Source: Amyelois transitella (Eukaryota; Arthropoda; Insecta; Lepidoptera; Pyralidae). From it: DNA of 64,000 bases. The translations under genes were made by a program, and so were the position numbers. Where the stretch lies: assembly GCF_032362555.1 (NCBI RefSeq), contig NC_083513.1, positions 9,548,001-9,612,000 on the forward strand, given 5' to 3'. Every line of letters starts with the position of its first letter. Within the stretch, counting starts at the first letter, position 1. This document shows positions 437 through 23,300 of the stretch, piece after piece. The notes under the pieces are model-generated. The model was not told the DNA's origin and searched no databases. It saw nothing but the letters and a program-made list of their open reading frames with translations.

Positions 437-3400
437 GTATCTTCACAGTGATGTGCTACAACGTTTTGTGCGACAAATATGCAACGAGGCAGATGTACGG
501 CTACTGTCCGAGTTGGGCATTGGAGTGGGACTACCGAAAAAAGGGCATTTTGGATGAGATCAGACATTATTCTGCGGATATCATTAGTTTACAGGTTTGT
601 AGTGTCTTTTTAGAGGCAAACTACATAAATTTTGTAATGTGAGTTTAAATGGACACACAAACATTCAGTACAGCAATTTACAGTTATGTAAATTAGTAAC
701 AATATGAAATTACGCTGAATCGAATTAAAGTTGACAATCTCACTTGTAATAAGAACGTAACAGACATAATCAGTAACTAACCCTAAGGTAATAGTTTAAT
801 ATTTATTACTTTTCTTTCATTTAAATGAAATAAAATGTGTTTATTTCAGGAAGTAGAAACGGATCAGTTCTACAACTTCTTCCTGCCGGAGCTTAAAGGT
901 GACGGCTATGATGGCATCTTCTCGCCGAAATCACGAGCCAAGACCATGTCGGAATCGGAGAGGAAATACGTGGATGGATGCGCCATCTTTTTTAGATCTG
1001 CAAAGTAAGTAATAACATTTTTTTTTGTGTATTTTGATAATAAATAAGTGAGTGACCAAAAGTGTAACTATGATCGATCCAATACGGATTTAGTTTAGTC
1101 AGATGGGAGTCGCTTCGTGTAAGAACCTGACTTATCCAATCCAGGATCCATGGTCAAAGGCATACCCTGGGCTATCTCCAGGGTGTCGGAGGATGCAACC
1201 GGGACTAAAAAACCACGTTCAGCTATTTGGCTTAAAGATAGAATTGAGATGGCCGATTGAGATGGCCTGATTCGACGGCCTCTGTGGCGCAGCGGTAGTA
1301 CGCTTGTCTGTGACACCGGAGGTCCCGGGTTCGAATCCCGGCCAGGGCATGATGAGAAAAGAACTTTTTCTGATTGACCTGGGTCCTGGATGTTTATCTA
1401 TATAAGTACTTATTATAAAATATATTATCGTTGAGTTAGTATCTCGTAACACAAGTCTCGAACTTACTTCGAGGCTAACTCAATCAGTGTAATTTGTCCC
1501 GTATATATTTATTTATATTTATATTTATTTATTCAAATAGTGACAGGTTGTTAGCTCATCGCCTAAAAGAAGAATCCCAAGTATATAAGCCTATCCCTTA
1601 GTCGCCTTTTACGACATCCGTGGAAAGAGATGGAGTGGTCCTATTCTTGCCGGGAACCACACGGCACCATTTTTGTTTCGCTACTTTGAAAATAGCTCAA
1701 TATGCAATTGTCAAGTTTCCAAGTGCGCACACGATCATAAATAATATTAGACCCGATGGCATGGCAGGAAAAAATAGCAGTGACCGAAATAATCGGTGAG
1801 CGCTAACTCTAAATTGCGTTTAGAAATAGTGGCAGGTTGCTAGACCGTGCGATGTAATAGTAGAGGTTTAAGAAATTTCAAGTATCATCTATTTTTTGTT
1901 TTTATTTCGCTACTAAGAATAAAAAAAACCTGCTTTCTAGAAGACAATATATGTATGCCTCTTCTAGAAATTTATAAGCCAATAACTATAATCTAACAAT
2001 GATCAATACGATCTTACTTTTAGTACTTACCGAGTATCTTCAACTGTATCTCCCTTCACTTTATTGTCATTTCAATCTGTTCCAGGTTCTCCTTAGTAAA
2101 AGAGCACCTGATAGAGTTCAACCAACTGGCGATGGCCAACAGCGAGGGTTCTGACAACATGCTGAATCGCGTCATGCCCAAAGACAACATCGGACTGGCA
2201 GCGCTGATCAAAACTAAAGAGGCGGCATGGGAAAATGGTAATACATACATTTATATTTATTCAGTCTGTGGCGACATCTCTACGCCACTCGTCAACAACA
2301 TCAAATCACATAACAACTGTCAATCATCGCGAAGAAATTGACGCGCTCAACCTATAAAAATAGCAGCGAAGTATCTAAGACGCGATTTCAAAGATTTCAC
2401 GGATTGGAGCTATATATACAACCTCCGACACAACATCGTCGGAGCCGCGGTTCCCCAGGCATAACACCTAGCCTGGCGGAAGATTTTCCCTTTGGTGGCG
2501 GTCGAGCCGAATCGAATGTTGTTGACGAGTGGCGTAGAGATGTCGCCACAAGTCTTTTCAAGACTGTTGGCTCTGTCTAGCCCACAAGGGATATAGACGT
2601 GACCATATGTATGTATGTATATTTATGACGCGACTTCGTCCGCGTGGAATAATTCTGGCGGGAACTCCGGTATAAAAAGTAGCCTATATGTTATTCTGGG
2701 TCTTCAACTACCCACATACCAAATTTCATCGTAATCGGTTTAGTAGTTTTTGCGTGAAAGAGTAACAAACATCCATACTGACATTAGTAGGATATAATCT
2801 AGACAATTACATTCGTCCACGGAACGCTTTGGAAACAGCGGGTTAGACAGAGCCAACAGTCTTCAAAATAATGAAAGGTCATCATGGAATTGAGATTCAA
2901 ACTCTGACAGCTTGCTAGCCAACCGCCTTCAAGAGTAATCCTTAAGTTTATTTGCCTTTCTCTTAATCGCCTCTTTGGCATCCATAGAAAAAAAATTGGA
3001 CTGGTCCCATCCTTTAGTGTCGGGAACCACACGGCACTTCATCGTGATGAAAGTAGATGATGATAGAAAATGGTAATTATGCCTGTAATTTATTACCACC
3101 TGCGCCGTGCAGTATGCGAAAGCCATTAGTTATGTTCTCGTTGGGATTATGTATTTATTGTACTTGTTAGTCAACTGTCAGTTGTAGCTTAACTGGTAAG
3201 ATAATGATGTTGTGGTTAGTTCGAATAATCGTTTTTAGGTGTCCCAATTATTTTTTTAAATTCTTTTTTTTTTCTTTTTAGTTTGTTTTGGCACAAACAG
3301 TCAAACAAACATTAATTAGTCGCGAATTAGGCGGACTTTATCTACTTAGTAAAATGCCTGTGTCGGCCAAAGTCCTCTTCTTATATATCGTACAATCTAT

Positions 3401-6400
3401 AAGTGACTCAGGTATCTTATGAACCGTTGTTCGCCTACATTACGTAATATAAAGTTCTTCTAATATGCCGATCTTTTTTTTTTAATAAATAAGTATCAAA
3501 TAAAGTCAAAAAGCTGAACGTGGCTATTCATTCTTTTTAAGACTGTTGGCTCCGTCTAACCCGCAAGGGATATAGACGTGACCGTGTGTATGTAAATATA
3601 ATTTCCTTATTTCGCAGGAATCCCAACCGACTCGTCGATGCTAGGCCAGCCTATACTGGTGTGCACCGCTCACATCCACTGGGACCCTGAGTTTTGTGAC
3701 GTGAAGCTCATACAAACTATGATGCTGAGCAACGAATTGCGCACGATCCTGGACGACTCGGCGAGAACGCTGCGTCTCGCCGGACAGCGGGACAACGTGC
3801 AGCTGTTGCTGTGCGGCGACTTCAACTCGCTGCCCGACAGCGGTGAGTGAGACTTTGTGTAGCAAGCGACAATTTATGTTGCCGTGTGGTTCCCGGTGCT
3901 TTAGTGGAATAGGTCCACTCCGTCTCTTGCCAGCGGATGTCGTAATGGGCTCATACAAACTATGATGCTCAGCAACGATTTGCGCACGATCCTGGACGAC
4001 TCGGCGAGAACGCTGCGTCTCGCCGGACAGCGGGACAACGTGCAGCTGTTGCTGTGCGGCGACTTCAACTCGCTGCCCGACAGCGGTGAGTGAGACTTTG
4101 TGTAGCAAGCGACGATTTATGTTGCCGTGTGGTTCCCGGCGGTTTGATGGAATAGGACCACTCCATCTCTAGCCAGCGGATGTCGTAATGAAGCTCATAC
4201 AAACTATGATGCTGAGCAACGAGCTGCGCACGATCCTGGACGACTCGGCGAGAACCCTGCGTCTCGCCGGACAGCGGGACAACGTGCAGCTGTTGCTGTG
4301 CGGCGACTTCAACTCGCTGCCCGACAGCGGTGAGTGAGATTTTGTGTGGCAAGCGACAATTTATGTTGCCGTGTGGTTCCCGGCGCTTTGATGGAGTAGG
4401 ACCACTCCATCTCTAGCCAGCGGGTGTCGTAATGAAGCTCATACAAACTATGATGCTGAGCAACGAGCTGCGCACGATACTGGACGACTCGGCGAGAACG
4501 CTGCGTCTCGCCGGACAGCGGGACAACGTGCAGCTGTTGCTTTGCGGCGACTTCAACTCGCTGCCCGACAGCGGTGAGTGAGACTTTGTGTGGCAAGCGA
4601 CAATTTATGTTGCCGTGTGGTTCCCGGCGCTTTGATGGAGTAGGACCACTCCATCTCTAGCCAGCGGGTGTCGTAATGAAGCTCATACAAACTATGATGC
4701 TGAGCAACGAGCTGCGCACGATACTGGACGACTCGGCGAGAACGCTGCGTCTCGCCGGACAGCGGGACAACGTGCAGCTGTTGCTGTGCGGCGACTTCAA
4801 CTCGCTGCCCGACAGCGGTGAGTGAGACTTTGTGTGGCAAGCGACAATTTATGTTGCCGTGTGGTTCCCGGCGCTTTGATGGAGTAGGACCACTCCATCT
4901 CTAGCCAGCGGGTGTCGTAATGAAGCTCATACAAACTATGATGCTGAGCAACGAGCTGCGCACGATCCTGGACGACTCGGCGAGAACGCTGCGTCTCGCC
5001 GGACAGCGGGACAACGTGCAGCTGTTGCTGTGCGGCGACTTCAACTCGCTGCCCGACAGCGGTGAGTGAGACTTTGTGTGGCAAGCGACAATTTATGTTG
5101 CCGTGTGGTTCCCGGCGCTTTGATGGAGTAGGACCACTCCATCTCTAGCCAGCGGGTGTCGTAATGAAGCTCATACAAACTATGATGCTGAGCAACGAGC
5201 TGCGCACGATCCTGGACGACTCGGCGAGAACGCTGCGTCTCGCCGGACAGCGGGACAACGTGCAGCTGTTGCTGTGCGGCGACTTCAACTCGCTGCCCGA
5301 CAGCGGTGAGTGAGACTTTGTGTGGCAAGCGACAATTTATGTTGCCGTGTGGTTCCCGGCGCTTTGATGGAATAGGTCCACTCCGTCTCTTGCCAGCGGA
5401 TGTCGTAATGAAGCTCATACAAACTATGATGCTGAGCAACGAGCTGCGCACGATACTGGACGACTCGGCGAGAACGCTGCGTCTCGCCGGACAGCGGGAC
5501 AACGTGCAGCTGTTGCTTTGCGGCGACTTCAACTCGCTGCCCGACAGCGGTGAGTGAGACTTTGTGTAGCAAGCGACAATTTATGTTGCCGTGTGGTTCC
5601 CGGCGCTTTGATGGAGTAGGTCCACTCCGTCTCTTGCCAGCGGATGTCGTAATAAGGGAATGGCTAGCTGGCAAACTTGGGATGCTTCTTGTAGGCGATG
5701 AGCTAGCAACCTGTCATTAATTGAATTTAAATTCCATCACTAAGCCAAATGGTATGATATAGACGTCATTGTATGAATATATATATAATAATAATATATA
5801 TAAATCCTTGCGGGGTAGACAGAGCCAATAGTTTTGAAAAGACTGATAGGCCACGTTCAGGTGTTAGCTGTTTGCCTTAATGAAAAAAATTGAGATTTAA
5901 ATAGTGACAGGTTGCCTTAAAGACGATCCCAAGTTTATAAGCGTATCCTTTAGTCGCCTTTTACGACATCTATGGGAACGAGATGGAGAAGACCTTATTC
6001 TATTGTTTTTTAATGATGCCGTAAACCACACGGCATAGATTCATAATTTTATGTGTTACCTTTGTTTGTTACCGCTTCTTCTGCACTGACGCCTTGGAAG
6101 CGGCACTAAACTTAGTTTTAAGTAATTTATTTGACGTCAACCAATGTTGTTAAACCATACGTTTTGACAATTATTAAGCGATATGAGGTATCCTATATAA
6201 TAATGAATAAAAAATTTGAATTAGAATTTTGTTTATATAATCAGAACAGTATGAAAATAAAAAGCATTTTTTTTTTTTCACAGGAGTAGTAGAGTTCCTG
6301 TCGTCTGGCCGCGTGTCCTCCGAGCACCGCGACTTCAAGGAGCTGGGCTACGCGGCGTCCCTCCGCCGGATGCCGGGCTCCGAGCACGAGTTCACGCACA

Positions 6401-8160
6401 CCTTCAAACTGGCGTCCGCGTACAGCGAGGACATCATGCCCTATACCAATTATACGTGAGTAACATACATACATACATACATACATGTAATCAGGTCTAT
6501 ATCCCTTGCGGGGTAGACAGAGCCAACTGTCTTGAAAAGTCTTATCGGTCACGTTCAGCTATTTGGCTTTAAGATAGAATTGAGATTCAAATAGTGCTAG
6601 GTTGCTAGCCCATCGCCTAAAAGAAGAATCCCAAGTATGTAAGCCTATCCCTTAGTCGCCTTTTACGACATCCATGGGAAAGAGATGGAGTGGTTCCATT
6701 CTTTTTTGTATTAGTGCCAGGAACCACACGGCACTACGTGAGTGAATTACTATAATGAAAAAAGAGATTTAAGACCCGTTCGCCGTGTGGTTCCCGTCAC
6801 AAAATATAGAATAGGACCACTCCAGCTCTTTCCTATGGATGTCGTGAAAGGCGACTAAGGGATAGGCTTACAAACTTGGGATTCTTTTTTAGGCGATGGG
6901 TTAGCAATCTGTCACTATTTGAATCTCAATTCTATCATTAAGCCAAATAGCTGAACGTGGCCATTCAGTCTTTTCAAGACTGTGGGCTCTGTCTACCCCG
7001 CAAGGGATATAGACGTGACCATATGTATGTATGTTTAAGATCCCCTCCATTACTTTCCCATGGATGACGCGTTGCGCTAATCTGCGCTGTCTAACATTAC
7101 CGATGCGACTTATAAATGTGGTAGTACTGTTCACCTTGTGGTGTTTTATACTTAGAAATTAATTTTATAAAAAAACAAGCTGTCCCGGCAAACGTTGTTT
7201 TGCCATATAAATAATTTTTAAGAAATTTCTAGTTTTAAAAAAAGTTAAAAGTGGACATCCCTTATCAATAAAGGGTATGAAAAATAGATGTTAGCCGATT
7301 CTCAGACCTACTGAATATGCATGCAAAATTTGATTAAAATCAGTAAAGCCGTTTCGGAGGTGTACGGAGACAACCATTGTGACACGAGAATTTTATATAT
7401 AAGATTATTTATACGAACTTTGCGAGAAGTATAATTTTTTGTTTGTTTGTAATATGTTTATTGCGCAGAAATTTACACAGTTACAAGAAATAGTACATAT
7501 TTATAAAATAAACAAACTCTTCAGCTTTATTATATTGATATAGATCTATATATAAACTTGTTAATAAATTTGAGTATAATATTGACATTAACACGTTTCA
7601 GGTTCGACTTCAAGGGCATAATCGACTACATCTTTTATAGTAAACAGTCGATGACGCCACTTGGTCTCCTCGGGCCTCTGTCGCAGGACTGGTTCAGGGA
7701 GCACAAGGTGGTTGGTTGCCCACACCCTCACATACCATCAGGTGAGTGGTTCTTTGAAGTAATTATTACGTTGATTGTTCATAAACTCATTAAAGTTATT
7801 TAATTGTTGACAGCTGTCAAAGTGACATCTTATTTTTTTTTTCATTTGTTTTTTTTTTATAATTGGGCTAACACCTTTTGTTTTTATGGATAACTTAGCA
7901 CTTGTTTGACAATATGAAGGTTGGGATCCAGTGAGACTTCATTCGGCAATCGCTCGGGTTTCTCTGTCTTTACCTTTTTTGATCATAGTGGTTGTCCATA
8001 CTTCGACTTCTTCGTTAGTAAACTTTACTCGCGAGCAATAGCTAGTATTGAATAAATAAAACACAATAAATCCTCGACAGATCACTTCCCGCTGCTGGTG
8101 GAGCTGGAGATGTGCCCGAGCACGAGCGGCAACTCCAACGGTCTGATCGGGCGCAGGTAG
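437..8160 (+). CDS. twin: CCR4-NOT complex subunit 6-like deadenylase (twin/CCR4), 5'-partial
   Basis: This encodes the 3'-5' poly(A) exonuclease of the cytoplasmic CCR4-NOT complex, which shortens mRNA tails. Seven exons join in phase: 437-594, 850-1004, 2086-2237, 3618-3842, 6284-6455, 7602-7741 and 8081-8160 (stop TAG). They give about 359 residues covering the whole endonuclease/exonuclease/phosphatase domain. The frame opens with FTVMCYNVLCDKYATRQ, as in CNOT6. Expected active-site residues are visible: Glu in SLQEVE, Asp and Asn in CGDFNSLPDS, Asp in GIIDYIFYS and His in PSDHF. The leucine-rich repeat N-terminus is outside the window. The intron after exon 4 holds seven more tandem copies of the exon 3' part plus two inverted SINE pairs. 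Identity is very secure; only the use of the extra copies is unclear. Confidence 0.95.
1098..1252 (+). mobile_element. LINE 3'-end fragment followed by SINE piece
   Basis: The segment around cttcgtgtaagaacctgac recurs in diverged form at 60425-60500, which marks it as an interspersed repeat. It is followed at 1213-1252 by a piece of the (TATG)n SINE. It lies in twin intron 2. Confidence 0.5.
1277..1525 (+). mobile_element. tRNA-headed SINE
   Basis: The head resembles a tRNA gene, with an A box (TGGCGCAGCGG) and B box (GGTTCGAATCC) and no intron. It is followed by a non-tRNA body and an ATTTATTT-type tail. Further copies lie at 37864 and, on the minus strand, at 53990. The body after the head, shared between copies, shows it is a SINE and not a working tRNA gene. 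Confidence 0.8.
1532..1667 (-). mobile_element. (TATG)n SINE, partial
   Basis: It carries the head half of the commonest SINE of this window. Orientation is set by the gccgtgtggttccc head and the (TATG)n tail; here the complement ends at the head. Confidence 0.8.
2267..2550 (+). mobile_element. Fold-back LTR copy with 34-bp inverted ends
   Basis: The body matches the LTR found at 62863 and 63587, including ttggagctatatata and the CACCTAGCCTGG block. The usual right end is replaced by the exact reverse complement of its own first 34 bases (2267-2300 against 2517-2550). It lies in twin intron 3, right beside a SINE tail. Confidence 0.85.
2551..2620 (+). mobile_element. (TATG)n SINE, 3' part
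   Basis: This is the SINE end from agtcttttcaagactg through gatatagacgtgacc to the ATGT tail. It abuts the fold-back LTR directly. Confidence 0.75.
2626..2797 (+). mobile_element. Non-LTR retrotransposon 3' end
   Basis: It has the arrangement widespread in Lepidoptera: cgacttcgtccgcgtgg near the start, then caaatttcatc and gtttttgcgtgaaagag near the end. No coding part is present. Confidence 0.65.
2836..3037 (-). mobile_element. (TATG)n SINE, diverged
   Basis: The full body is recognisable from gtagacagagcc-like sequence to the ggaaccacacggcac end, with many changes. It is intronic in twin. Confidence 0.75.
3511..3597 (+). mobile_element. (TATG)n SINE, 3' part
   Basis: The tail portion (aagctgaacgtgg to gatatagacgtgacc) lies just before the acceptor of twin exon 4. 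Confidence 0.7.
3702..5652 (+). repeat. 244-bp tandem array, eight copies of exon 4 3' part plus SINE piece
   Basis: The unit runs from inside exon 4 of twin, across its GTGAGT donor, into the 5' part of a SINE. It recurs eight times with the same landmark at 3706, 3949, 4193, 4437, 4681, 4925, 5169 and 5413, so the period is 244 (243 once). Copy 1 belongs to the true exon. Every copy keeps the CGDFNSLPDS coding block and the donor. Copies differ at a few bases (for example atcctgg or atactgg, and ttgctttgc or ttgctgtgc), so it is not a simple assembly echo. The last copy runs on into the rest of the SINE, which shows the SINE was in the intron before the amplification. Confidence 0.95.
5397..5549 (+). 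other. Possible extra exon (copy 8 of the array), 153 nt, phase 1-1
   Basis: A pyrimidine run ending in ccgtctcttgccag, supplied by the SINE, precedes an open stretch up to the normal GTGAGT donor. Its length is 153 nt, and both ends are phase 1, the same as the flanking introns, so inclusion would add 51 residues without shifting frame. Copies 3-7 have the same structure. Copy 2 lacks one base and would meet a stop. Whether any copy is spliced cannot be told from the sequence. Confidence 0.35.
5585..5790 (+). mobile_element. (TATG)n SINE, source of the array's intron part
   Basis: This copy begins inside the last array unit and continues through the SINE body to a degenerate AT tail. It shows where the SINE piece inside the 244-bp unit came from. 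It stands tail to tail with the next copy. Confidence 0.8.
5804..6036 (-). mobile_element. (TATG)n SINE
   Basis: A complement-strand copy running from ccttgcggggtagacagagcc to ccacacggca. Together with the preceding copy it makes an inverted pair. Confidence 0.8.
6062..6232 (+). mobile_element. Interspersed repeat 3' end, also at 49540
   Basis: A near-identical block of about 160 bp, starting at gttaccgcttcttctgcac and ending in an AATAAA and TTGAA-rich tail, recurs at 49540-49713. The tail suggests a non-LTR element or SINE end. Confidence 0.75.
6462..6735 (-). mobile_element. (TATG)n SINE, full length
   Basis: An intact copy, (CATA)n tail first, in the twin intron that begins at 6456. It stands head to head with the copy at 6782. 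Confidence 0.9.
6782..7034 (+). mobile_element. (TATG)n SINE, full length
   Basis: An intact copy from gccgtgtggttccc to (ATGT)n, separated from the inverted copy by only about 46 bp. Confidence 0.9.
7175..7408 (+). mobile_element. Non-LTR retrotransposon 3' end
   Basis: It begins at acaagctgtcccggcaaacg and includes caaaatttgattaaaatcag and gagacaaccattgtgac, a layout typical of lepidopteran LINE tails. No open frame survives. Confidence 0.6.
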
Positions 8161-20335: not shown

Positions 20336-23300
20336 ATGAGATTTTGTTATTTGGTATATCATCTACTCTACCTAATATCTTGGTCCTATGGTAAGTTTGT
20401 TCATAATTTGCAAGCCTGAACTAAGTATTTTATAAACATTGAACTAACTTTGTCACAAATATTATAGGTGAGGATGATAACATTAAGAAAAAAATGGCAG
20501 ATGCGATAATACGAAAGTTGTATAATTTAACAACTAATAACATATTCGCCAATGGCACAGTAGAAGAAAGAAATAATGCATGGAACATTTTTGAGGATAG
20601 GCTGAAAGCAGTGTCACAAAAAAGATATGGCCCTGATACAGGCAAATATATTGATTTGATTATGCACGGCATAAAGGCAATGTCATCAAACGTTTCGCCA
20701 CGTTTGGTAGGTGAGCCGCATGTAATGCGAAAAAATGTTAATACTGATAAAAACAATGGTTTTAAGCTACATGAAGGCTATAGCGATAATACTGTTGATG
20801 AAATTGTTAATGCTGCTAACTTTGAAAATAAAAAGGAATCTGTTAGAAGCGTAGCGTTAAAGCTAAAGAACATAGTGGACAGTTATAACGATAAAACTGA
20901 CGATCAAACTATTCATGTTTCTAATACTGAAAATAAACAAGCTGTTGTTAAAAAAATAACGAATAAGCTAAAGACCTTAGCGGAAGGTTTATACGATAAA
21001 AATTTTGACCAAAAACATATAATCGAATCTATAAAACAAAAAGTAATGAATATGATATTAAAGAAACATCCTGCTAGTAAAGGTCAAAGAAATGTAAAAG
21101 AATTGGGTCGCCGTCTATCTAATGTTATAGAAATGGTAGTTCATACCGTCATATCGAATTTCAGTAAAGTACAGGATAACGGGCTAAGATATGATAAATC
21201 GGAGGCAGAATCTTATTTGAATAAAGTAAATGAGGAAAAAGCAAAAGATCGAGATTTGTCCGTAATGGTAATGCGCGATGGAAATAGTTTTATTACAGAT
21301 ATCCCTTTTTATGACGATTTCAAAGGAGTTACAAGTACAGTCAACTGCGATGCACTGACGGATAAAGTTTGCACAGCTTTGAAATTCACGAATAAATTGC
21401 TTTGTCCATTGGATGGTAAAAAAATATCTATAGAACGGCTTTGTGATGGGGTAAACGATTGTGTTGATCGACATGATGAACGAAATTGCATTCGACAAGG
21501 TAGGTATGATTTAAATATTTTTTTAAAGTACTTAGTTATTTTGATGTTTTAAATTAATTTATTGCAGTGATAACTATAGAACATGAATAGTTTTTAATCT
21601 TTGCTAAAAAGATATAGGTACAATTTATGATTTACTATTGTCTAAATTAATTTTCAATTCACAATAATTACATTTTTTCGACCTCTGTTGTGAAGCTTCT
21701 TGCTTAATGATAGTAAAAATACAAACTGTGTTTAGATTGAACTGGGTCTTGGACGTATATTTACGTATCTCTATACTTATTACATTATATTGAATTAGTT
21801 GAGTTAAATATCCCCAACACAATAACACAAGTCTTAACGAACTTACTTTGGGACTCGCTCCATTTATGTAATTTGATGGAATATTTTTAAGCTATCGACA
21901 AAATAAAAGATGCAAGGAGATTAATATCACACGTGGAAGAATCTGTTATTAAGAACTGTGCGAACACGCATGTCGACAACACATTACTAAGCAAGCAGAG
22001 TGATATCTTGGGCGCAGTATTGCAATCAGAACTTAATTTTTTGAAAAGACATGCGGGAAACAATAGTGATGATAATTTTGGAGCTCCTGAAGTGGTTAAA
22101 AAGACTGTCAATGAAGTTGCGATGGTTTTGAGTTCGCTCTCTACTGGTTTAGAAGGGTCCTTATGTCCTCGTTACTATGGTCAGGATGAAGAAGATGTCG
22201 CCGTTGATCAGAAAAATGTTTTATCTCTAACTGGTGGTGATAAAAATGATCCATTCGAAGATCTTAACCCACAGAGCACGCCGGCACGATCGACTTTGGC
22301 AAATAAGTGTGTATGCGATAAAGGTTTTTGTTCTGACATTAACTGTAGCCAAATGTGTCACCTTGTATGTTGGCAAAAACATAGTCTTGGTCATTGGGGG
22401 TGCGTATCGGTAGACGGAAGCACAACTGTATCGCTGAATGTGTTGTGTGATGGTAAAACTGATTGCTATGATCACAGTGACGAAGAAGATTGCTCCGTAG
22501 GTAAACATTTTTTTATTACTAGGTTGTAAGCTTCTACACGATTTAAATTTACCCAGTTACTAGTGTGATTGCTTTATGTTTTATGTTGAAACTGGCACTT
22601 AACTGAGAGATTCTAGTCCTATATGTATTATAACATGTTTTAGGTGATTTATCAAGATTTCAAGCTATCACCATTTACGACGATGTCCTCACAGACTTGG
22701 CGTTGAAAGCTCAAGCTGCTGACATGAAATTTATCCGTAACAACCTACTATCATTGCGCGCCAGCGTTTCTTATTTACAAAAAGTCACCACTCAGGCCAG
22801 ACCGCAACTGGAACATGTAAAAACTGTCCGAGATTTGTGTTTTTCGACGCTAATTTCTACATACAACAAGGTTTTAAGCAAAGGCAATATTCAGAGTTTG
22901 GATGATATACATCATTATTTGTTAACATTAAATCAGAAATTGATTTCGGCGTTGAAGCGCTCTCATACTGGCAATGACAAGATTGTAACTTTGGAAGGGT
23001 GTTATTGCAGTAAGAACCGTTGCACTTTGGCGAAGTGTTCCAAGCAGTGCGAACGAGCATGTGCTGTAGAATCGCGGTTAATCAAATACAGTTGTGACGG
23101 AACTTCCAAGAGCGCCGTCTTCGTGCCTTCTAACGCACTCTGCAATGGAAAGGAGAATTGTCCAAGAGGCGAAGATGAAGTAGACTGCAAGAAAGGTTTG
23201 TATTATAACGGATCATAACTTTACAAGTCATGGATTTCCTCGTTTATAACTTGACTTGTTATTTCAAAAACGTACGATTATAATCGGAGTTTTGTAACAA

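Follow-up and report, generated by a model that had tools for sequence, protein, structure and literature searches.

The CCR4 gene and the repeated part of its exon

Seven coding exons of one gene were located on the forward strand of the window (the whole 64,000-nucleotide stretch of Amyelois transitella DNA that was analyzed), and a tandem array begins within the fourth of them and continues into the intron that follows. The exons and this intron are given below in window positions.

437-594, + strand: CCR4 nuclease-domain exon
850-1004, + strand: CCR4 nuclease-domain exon
2086-2237, + strand: CCR4 nuclease-domain exon
3618-3842, + strand: CCR4 nuclease-domain exon of 225 nt, with a unique 5' part (3618-3702) and the exon part of copy 1 (3703-3842)
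3843-6283, + strand: array-bearing intron of 2441 nt, with copies 2-8 and seven extra donors
6284-6455, + strand: CCR4 nuclease-domain exon, the first after the array
7602-7741, + strand: CCR4 nuclease-domain exon
8081-8160, + strand: last CCR4 coding exon, stop included

When spliced in silico, the seven exons produced an open frame of 359 amino acids followed by a stop codon, with GT-AG boundaries at all six introns. The 359-residue domain matched PF03372 (E 2.1e-23), and residues 1-350 of it matched the structures of CNOT6 and CNOT6L with E of about 1e-143; on the strength of these matches the predicted product identifies the gene as CCR4/twin (CNOT6 type) and the exons as its nuclease domain. 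A protein search of the whole genome returned 15 matches, 14 of which were these exons and the array copies, while the fifteenth was a weak match on contig C1 (E 0.08), and the nuclease domain appears from this search to occupy a single locus. With respect to the leucine-rich N-terminus, a query of human CNOT6 residues 1-157 gave C9:9423204 and C9:9429760 as the best 2 of 43 matches (57% and 60% identity). Both of these leucine-rich-repeat exons precede the window by about 118-125 kb on its own contig and strand; in the 20 kb upstream of the window, no leucine-rich exons were found at E 0.01. As the upstream exons share contig and strand with the nuclease domain, the gene appears complete and long. 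If they belong to it, G000:C9:9423204-9548001 would have to contain either an intron of great length or several additional exons. The nuclease domain together with N-terminal leucine-rich repeats would place the gene among the CCR4/CNOT6 deadenylases, a family with the exonuclease-endonuclease-phosphatase fold, and deadenylase activity is predicted. An earlier note on this DNA, made from the sequence alone, had named the gene CCR4/twin and called it single-copy, and both statements agree with these searches; the exon it numbered 4 is the fourth within the window, with the two leucine-rich-repeat exons further 5'. Elsewhere in the window, 20443-23218 contains three long open frames whose cysteine patterns appear to resemble LDL-receptor class A repeats.

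The array and its copies are located as follows.

3702-5653, + strand: tandem array of eight copies, period 244 (first 243), from TRF and anchored spacing
3947-4085, + strand: exon part of copy 2, 139 nt, with a 1-base deletion at the left junction and GAT (Asp) in place of Glu
4190-4329, + strand: exon part of copy 3 with donor
4434-4573, + strand: exon part of copy 4 with donor
4678-4817, + strand: exon part of copy 5 with donor
4922-5061, + strand: exon part of copy 6 with donor; the whole copy is one column off the consensus
5166-5305, + strand: exon part of copy 7 with donor
5410-5549, + strand: exon part of copy 8 with donor; mosaic

TRF reported this array with a period of 244, 8.0 copies, 97% matches and a score of 3638, and the other five TRF rows in the window had periods of 4 to 24 only. 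When copies were anchored on a 20-mer of the exon, the first spacing was 243 and the six that followed were each 244. Pairwise identity of the copies over columns 1-240 was 94.6-99.6%, corresponding to 1 to 13 differing sites, and 18 of these columns were variable. The array is far beyond chance, and its near-identical head-to-tail units are those of a minisatellite or VNTR.

Each unit combines the 3' 140 nt of the exon (139 in copy 2) and the donor with about 37 bases of the intron and some 67 bases of a repeat element. The repeated exon part, 3703-3842, amounts to 140 of 225 nt, or 62%, and codes for 45 residues which include CGDFNSLPDS and align with CNOT6; the Asp and Asn of this motif correspond to catalytic residues of CNOT6L. 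Read from the CTC codon, LIQTMMLSNELRTILDDSARTLRLAGQRDNVQLLLCGDFNSLPDS is encoded in seven of the eight copies, copy 2 differing by a single E to D replacement. All eight have an identical donor, GCG/GTGAGT. The genuine acceptor and the 85 nt that begin the exon stand before copy 1 alone and are missing from copies 2-8. The eightfold amplification, the repeated 3' two-thirds of the exon, and the presence of both the splice donor and the CGDFNSLPDS motif within the unit had all been described in the earlier note and were recovered here by TRF, anchored spacing and translation. Its period of 244 holds for six spacings and is one base too long for the first. Its phrase "amplification of a catalytic exon" is too strong, since the repeated exon sequence is partial and has no acceptor of its own; copy 1 is the sole candidate for the normal exon.

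The repeat element and divergence among the copies

The part of the unit that derives from an interspersed repeat is placed as follows.

3879-3945, no strand assigned: interspersed-repeat fragment closing copy 1; the same fragment closes every copy
5586-5750, no strand assigned: element sequence, within copy 8 as far as 5653 and beyond the array from there on

A genome search with 40 of 96 candidates scored gave 47 matches. The exon part was found in eight of these, all within the array, and nowhere else; at least 39, a lower bound for the genome, lay outside the array and matched only from unit column 168 on. Another genomic copy or a retrocopy was rejected as the source, since, among the 40 candidates scored, matches to the exon part are confined to the array, and protein matches to one locus apart from that on C1. 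Inverted repeats were likewise rejected as a cause, as the one found, an AT-rich palindrome, lies outside the array.

The element family is very abundant, being present in 20 of 20 sampled 10-kb pieces (160 BLAST pieces). The element runs beyond copy 8 to about 5750, and because its sequence continues past the last copy, its insertion before the amplification is supported, which is the order of events put forward earlier. The "SINE piece" of that account does belong to an interspersed repeat family, and its identity as a SINE, which would carry a Pol III promoter or a tRNA-derived head, is putative. ARAGORN detected one tRNA-like gene in the window (1278-1349), outside the element. This tRNA-His-like gene lies between two CCR4 exons and is probably the head of a tRNA-derived SINE. 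Four element matches of equal score and identity were also observed at G000:C30:2428368, 2441633, 2454904 and 2468175, with spacings of 13,265, 13,271 and 13,271, and are probably a 13.3-kb tandem segmental duplication. When stretches of loci L028, L031, L035 and L043, which hold 5 of the 13 long-period arrays sampled elsewhere, were searched for the family in other tandem arrays, only L035 matched, over 19 bases.

On the right-hand side of the array, about eight bases of the family are absent at its edge or close by (window 5650-5660). Pairwise alignments with five family copies at two gap costs placed eight gap bases at the edge or a few bases from it in nine of ten cases, and exactly at the edge in five of ten; MAFFT instead placed a four-base gap slightly further on. 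This gap at the duplication junction is perhaps the scar of the founding break. By reading, about 1 bp at the founding junction is common to element and exon, so that homology to the element would not have driven the first duplication.

The copies carry traces of reshuffling. Copies 3-6 are the most alike among all 70 possible sets of four, and closer copies tend to be more alike, although marginally so (r 0.37, exact p 0.050). Within the repeat piece, one set of three variants is common to copies 1, 7 and 8 and another to copies 2-6, and copy 8 is a mosaic which combines exon variants of copy 4 with the repeat-piece variants of copies 1 and 7. All four combinations of variants were present at 24 pairs of sites, or at 20 when the four pairs involving column 243 were dropped, copy 8 being already flank at columns 241-243. 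This pattern indicates that copies have recombined or converted one another, or that mutations have recurred, and recombinant copies are what the unequal exchange suggested in the earlier note predicts.

Variable sites were fewer in the exon (6 of 136 columns) than in the rest of the unit (12 of 104), a marginal difference (Fisher p 0.048); with junction columns counted, the figures were 6 of 136 and 15 of 108 (p 0.011). Six of the seven minimal exon changes are synonymous and one is not, for which the neutral chance is 0.0013-0.0046 at a transition bias of 1-4. When the five changes taken as absent from copy 1 were considered, four were synonymous (chance 0.015-0.035). We attribute this bias to turnover through position 1, the site at which the exon is expressed, with the reservation that the numbers are small, at seven changes only, and that translated inner copies would give an identical bias.

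Splice sites and the fate of the inner copies

Candidate acceptors were observed in the repeat piece before each inner copy.

3932-3933, + strand: AG of the putative acceptor CTCTTGCCAG/CGG before copy 2, score 4.97
4177, 4421, 4665, 4909 and 5153: first exon base of equivalent putative acceptors, score 2.20
5397: first exon base of an equivalent putative acceptor, score 4.97

Splice sites were scored using a generic matrix, not fitted to Amyelois transitella. Scores of genuine acceptors ranged from -0.83 to 10.15, with 8.04 at 3618 and 10.15 at 6284, and the matrix separates poorly, as the genuine acceptors at 7602 (1.2) and 8081 (-0.83) fell below array CCAG sites. The donors of the array scored 6.39, second among the six genuine donors in the window, and reading past the donor of copy 1 meets a stop after two residues.

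The reading which we consider probable is that of an intronic, minisatellite-like array of long period which took in the 3' end of an exon, is removed by splicing and leaves the CCR4 enzyme intact. The first duplication would have joined a point in the already inserted repeat to a point in the exon with almost no shared bases, and the 244-bp repeats would then have expanded and been reshuffled through unequal exchange or gene conversion. As the genuine acceptor and the first 85 nt adjoin only copy 1, exon definition would pair the acceptor at 3618 with the donor at 3842; copies 2-8 would leave within the 2.4-kb intron and CCR4 would be made as usual. Copies passing through position 1 would face selection on their exon part, and the nearly complete restriction of exon differences to synonymous ones would follow because exchange exposes copies at that position. 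The acceptors at 3618 and 6284 outscore all candidates in the array, which reach at most 4.97 with the generic matrix, and the strength of the acceptor at 6284, together with exon definition at 3618-3842, would favor skipping of the inner copies. The array is probably variable in copy number. Against this reading, seven extra identical donors and putative in-frame acceptors could disturb splicing.

We consider it unlikely that such disturbance dominates, with the extra donors and putative acceptors cutting the amount of correct CCR4 mRNA in proportion to copy number and the loss being tolerated, as an insect may survive without CCR4. The eight identical, well-scoring donors are consistent with this, as are Drosophila twin nulls, which are viable, though female sterile (PMC4033318), so that a mildly reduced CCR4 function could be retained. 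Female sterility is, however, strongly selected against, exon definition favors the first donor, and the frame is intact across all seven exons.

An assembly error, in which the true locus has one or few copies, is quite improbable. Four of nine contigs (C3, C9, C18 and C21) are sized at exact multiples of 2,500, which hints at scaffold edits, and multiples of this kind suggest edits based on a contact map. The 18 variable columns, the mosaic combinations and the 243/244 spacing are nevertheless unlike repeated copying of one read, long reads, if used, would easily cross a 2-kb array, and neither the 64-kb window nor the other pieces, 220 kb in all, contained a single N.

It is very improbable, in our judgment, that copies 2-8 serve as a bank of cassette exons. 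The acceptor in the repeat piece would then make each of them an includable exon of 153 nt, adding 51 residues and a second catalytic segment, and copy number would tune CCR4 isoforms that are probably inactive. This interpretation draws on an AG with a pyrimidine run that precedes the exon part by 13 nt, and the CTC codon by 17, in six of the seven copies; its phase fits the upstream donor and the exon it would open is free of stops, such that use of CCAG would give in-frame 153-nt exons for copies 3-8. The sites in front of copies 2 and 8, at 4.97, outscore four of the seven genuine acceptors, and the AG is absent from all 14 other family copies aligned, which are partly non-independent (L018 and L019 are alike there, as are L025 and L027). 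Exon changes that are mostly synonymous would also be expected of translated copies. However, the CCAG of copies 3-7 (2.20) competes with an out-of-frame CTAG (2.24) that lies four bases upstream, and use of CCAG in copy 2 is out of frame. The frame would have been fixed once, by the first junction, with a chance of one in three, a second catalytic segment would probably break the fold, and exchange with copy 1 also accounts for the synonymous bias; the acceptor scores themselves come from the generic matrix. We can scarcely credit the extended form of the proposal, in which the bank of in-frame 153-nt exons varies in copy number and became exonic through the locus-specific AG, individuals differ in their extra catalytic segments, and the synonymous bias reflects selection on translated copies.

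Comparison with other tandem arrays

Long-period arrays are ordinary in this genome. Outside the window, 220 kb (20 random 10-kb pieces and the 20 kb upstream) contained 13 arrays with a period of at least 60, two of them with at least three copies of a unit of 100 or longer, and in this comparison the CCR4 array was the longest at 1952 bp, against 661 for the next. Other arrays observed in the sample were L031:4489-5149 (190 bp x 3.5), L043:3915-4519 (111 bp x 5.5) and L035:4461-4939 (62 bp x 7.7). The feature of the CCR4 array that seems uncommon is its capture of part of a conserved exon.

Among known systems, the human IFI6 (6-16) minisatellite is alike in that tandem repeats at an exon-intron boundary bring several donors; its units are short, about 12 bp, and, as Turri reportedly found in 1995, it provides multiple splice donors. 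Every CCR4 unit likewise holds a donor (8 of 8 copies), whereas the unit measures 244 bp, of which 140 nt are coding and a further part comes from a mobile repeat, and use of its extra donors is putative. Downstream repeat units of IFI6 are described as serving as donors (PMC4526556).

The human LPA kringle IV type 2 VNTR is also an exon-bearing tandem array in one gene. Its units are 5.6 kb long and protein-coding, and make up as much as 70% of the coding sequence (PMC11462820 and PMC11201333). The exon piece in CCR4, in contrast to LPA, is partial, without an acceptor of its own and probably intronic. LPA units contain complete exons.

Mutually exclusive exons of the Dscam type resemble the CCR4 array in that tandem exon copies lie between two constant exons. 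Such exons are complete and diverged, whereas the CCR4 copies are near identical and partial, and a complete exon with acceptor and donor in every copy was not found. One and only one exon of a mutually exclusive array is included (PMC6071210). Tandem arrays which grow from transposable-element sequence have been reviewed (PMC6947457 and PMC9659126); a mobile-repeat fragment lies within the CCR4 unit too, and over half of the unit is host exon. The CCR4 case therefore combines traits of IFI6, LPA, mutually exclusive and transposable-element arrays, and differs in its partial exon without acceptor. No tandem array of a CCR4 exon was present among the literature matches listed, which is weak evidence of its absence from print.

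The array by itself leaves knowledge of CCR4 unchanged. If it is real and polymorphic, it would provide a natural test of how exon definition chooses one of eight identical donors, and would show how selection at one expressed position shapes a whole array.
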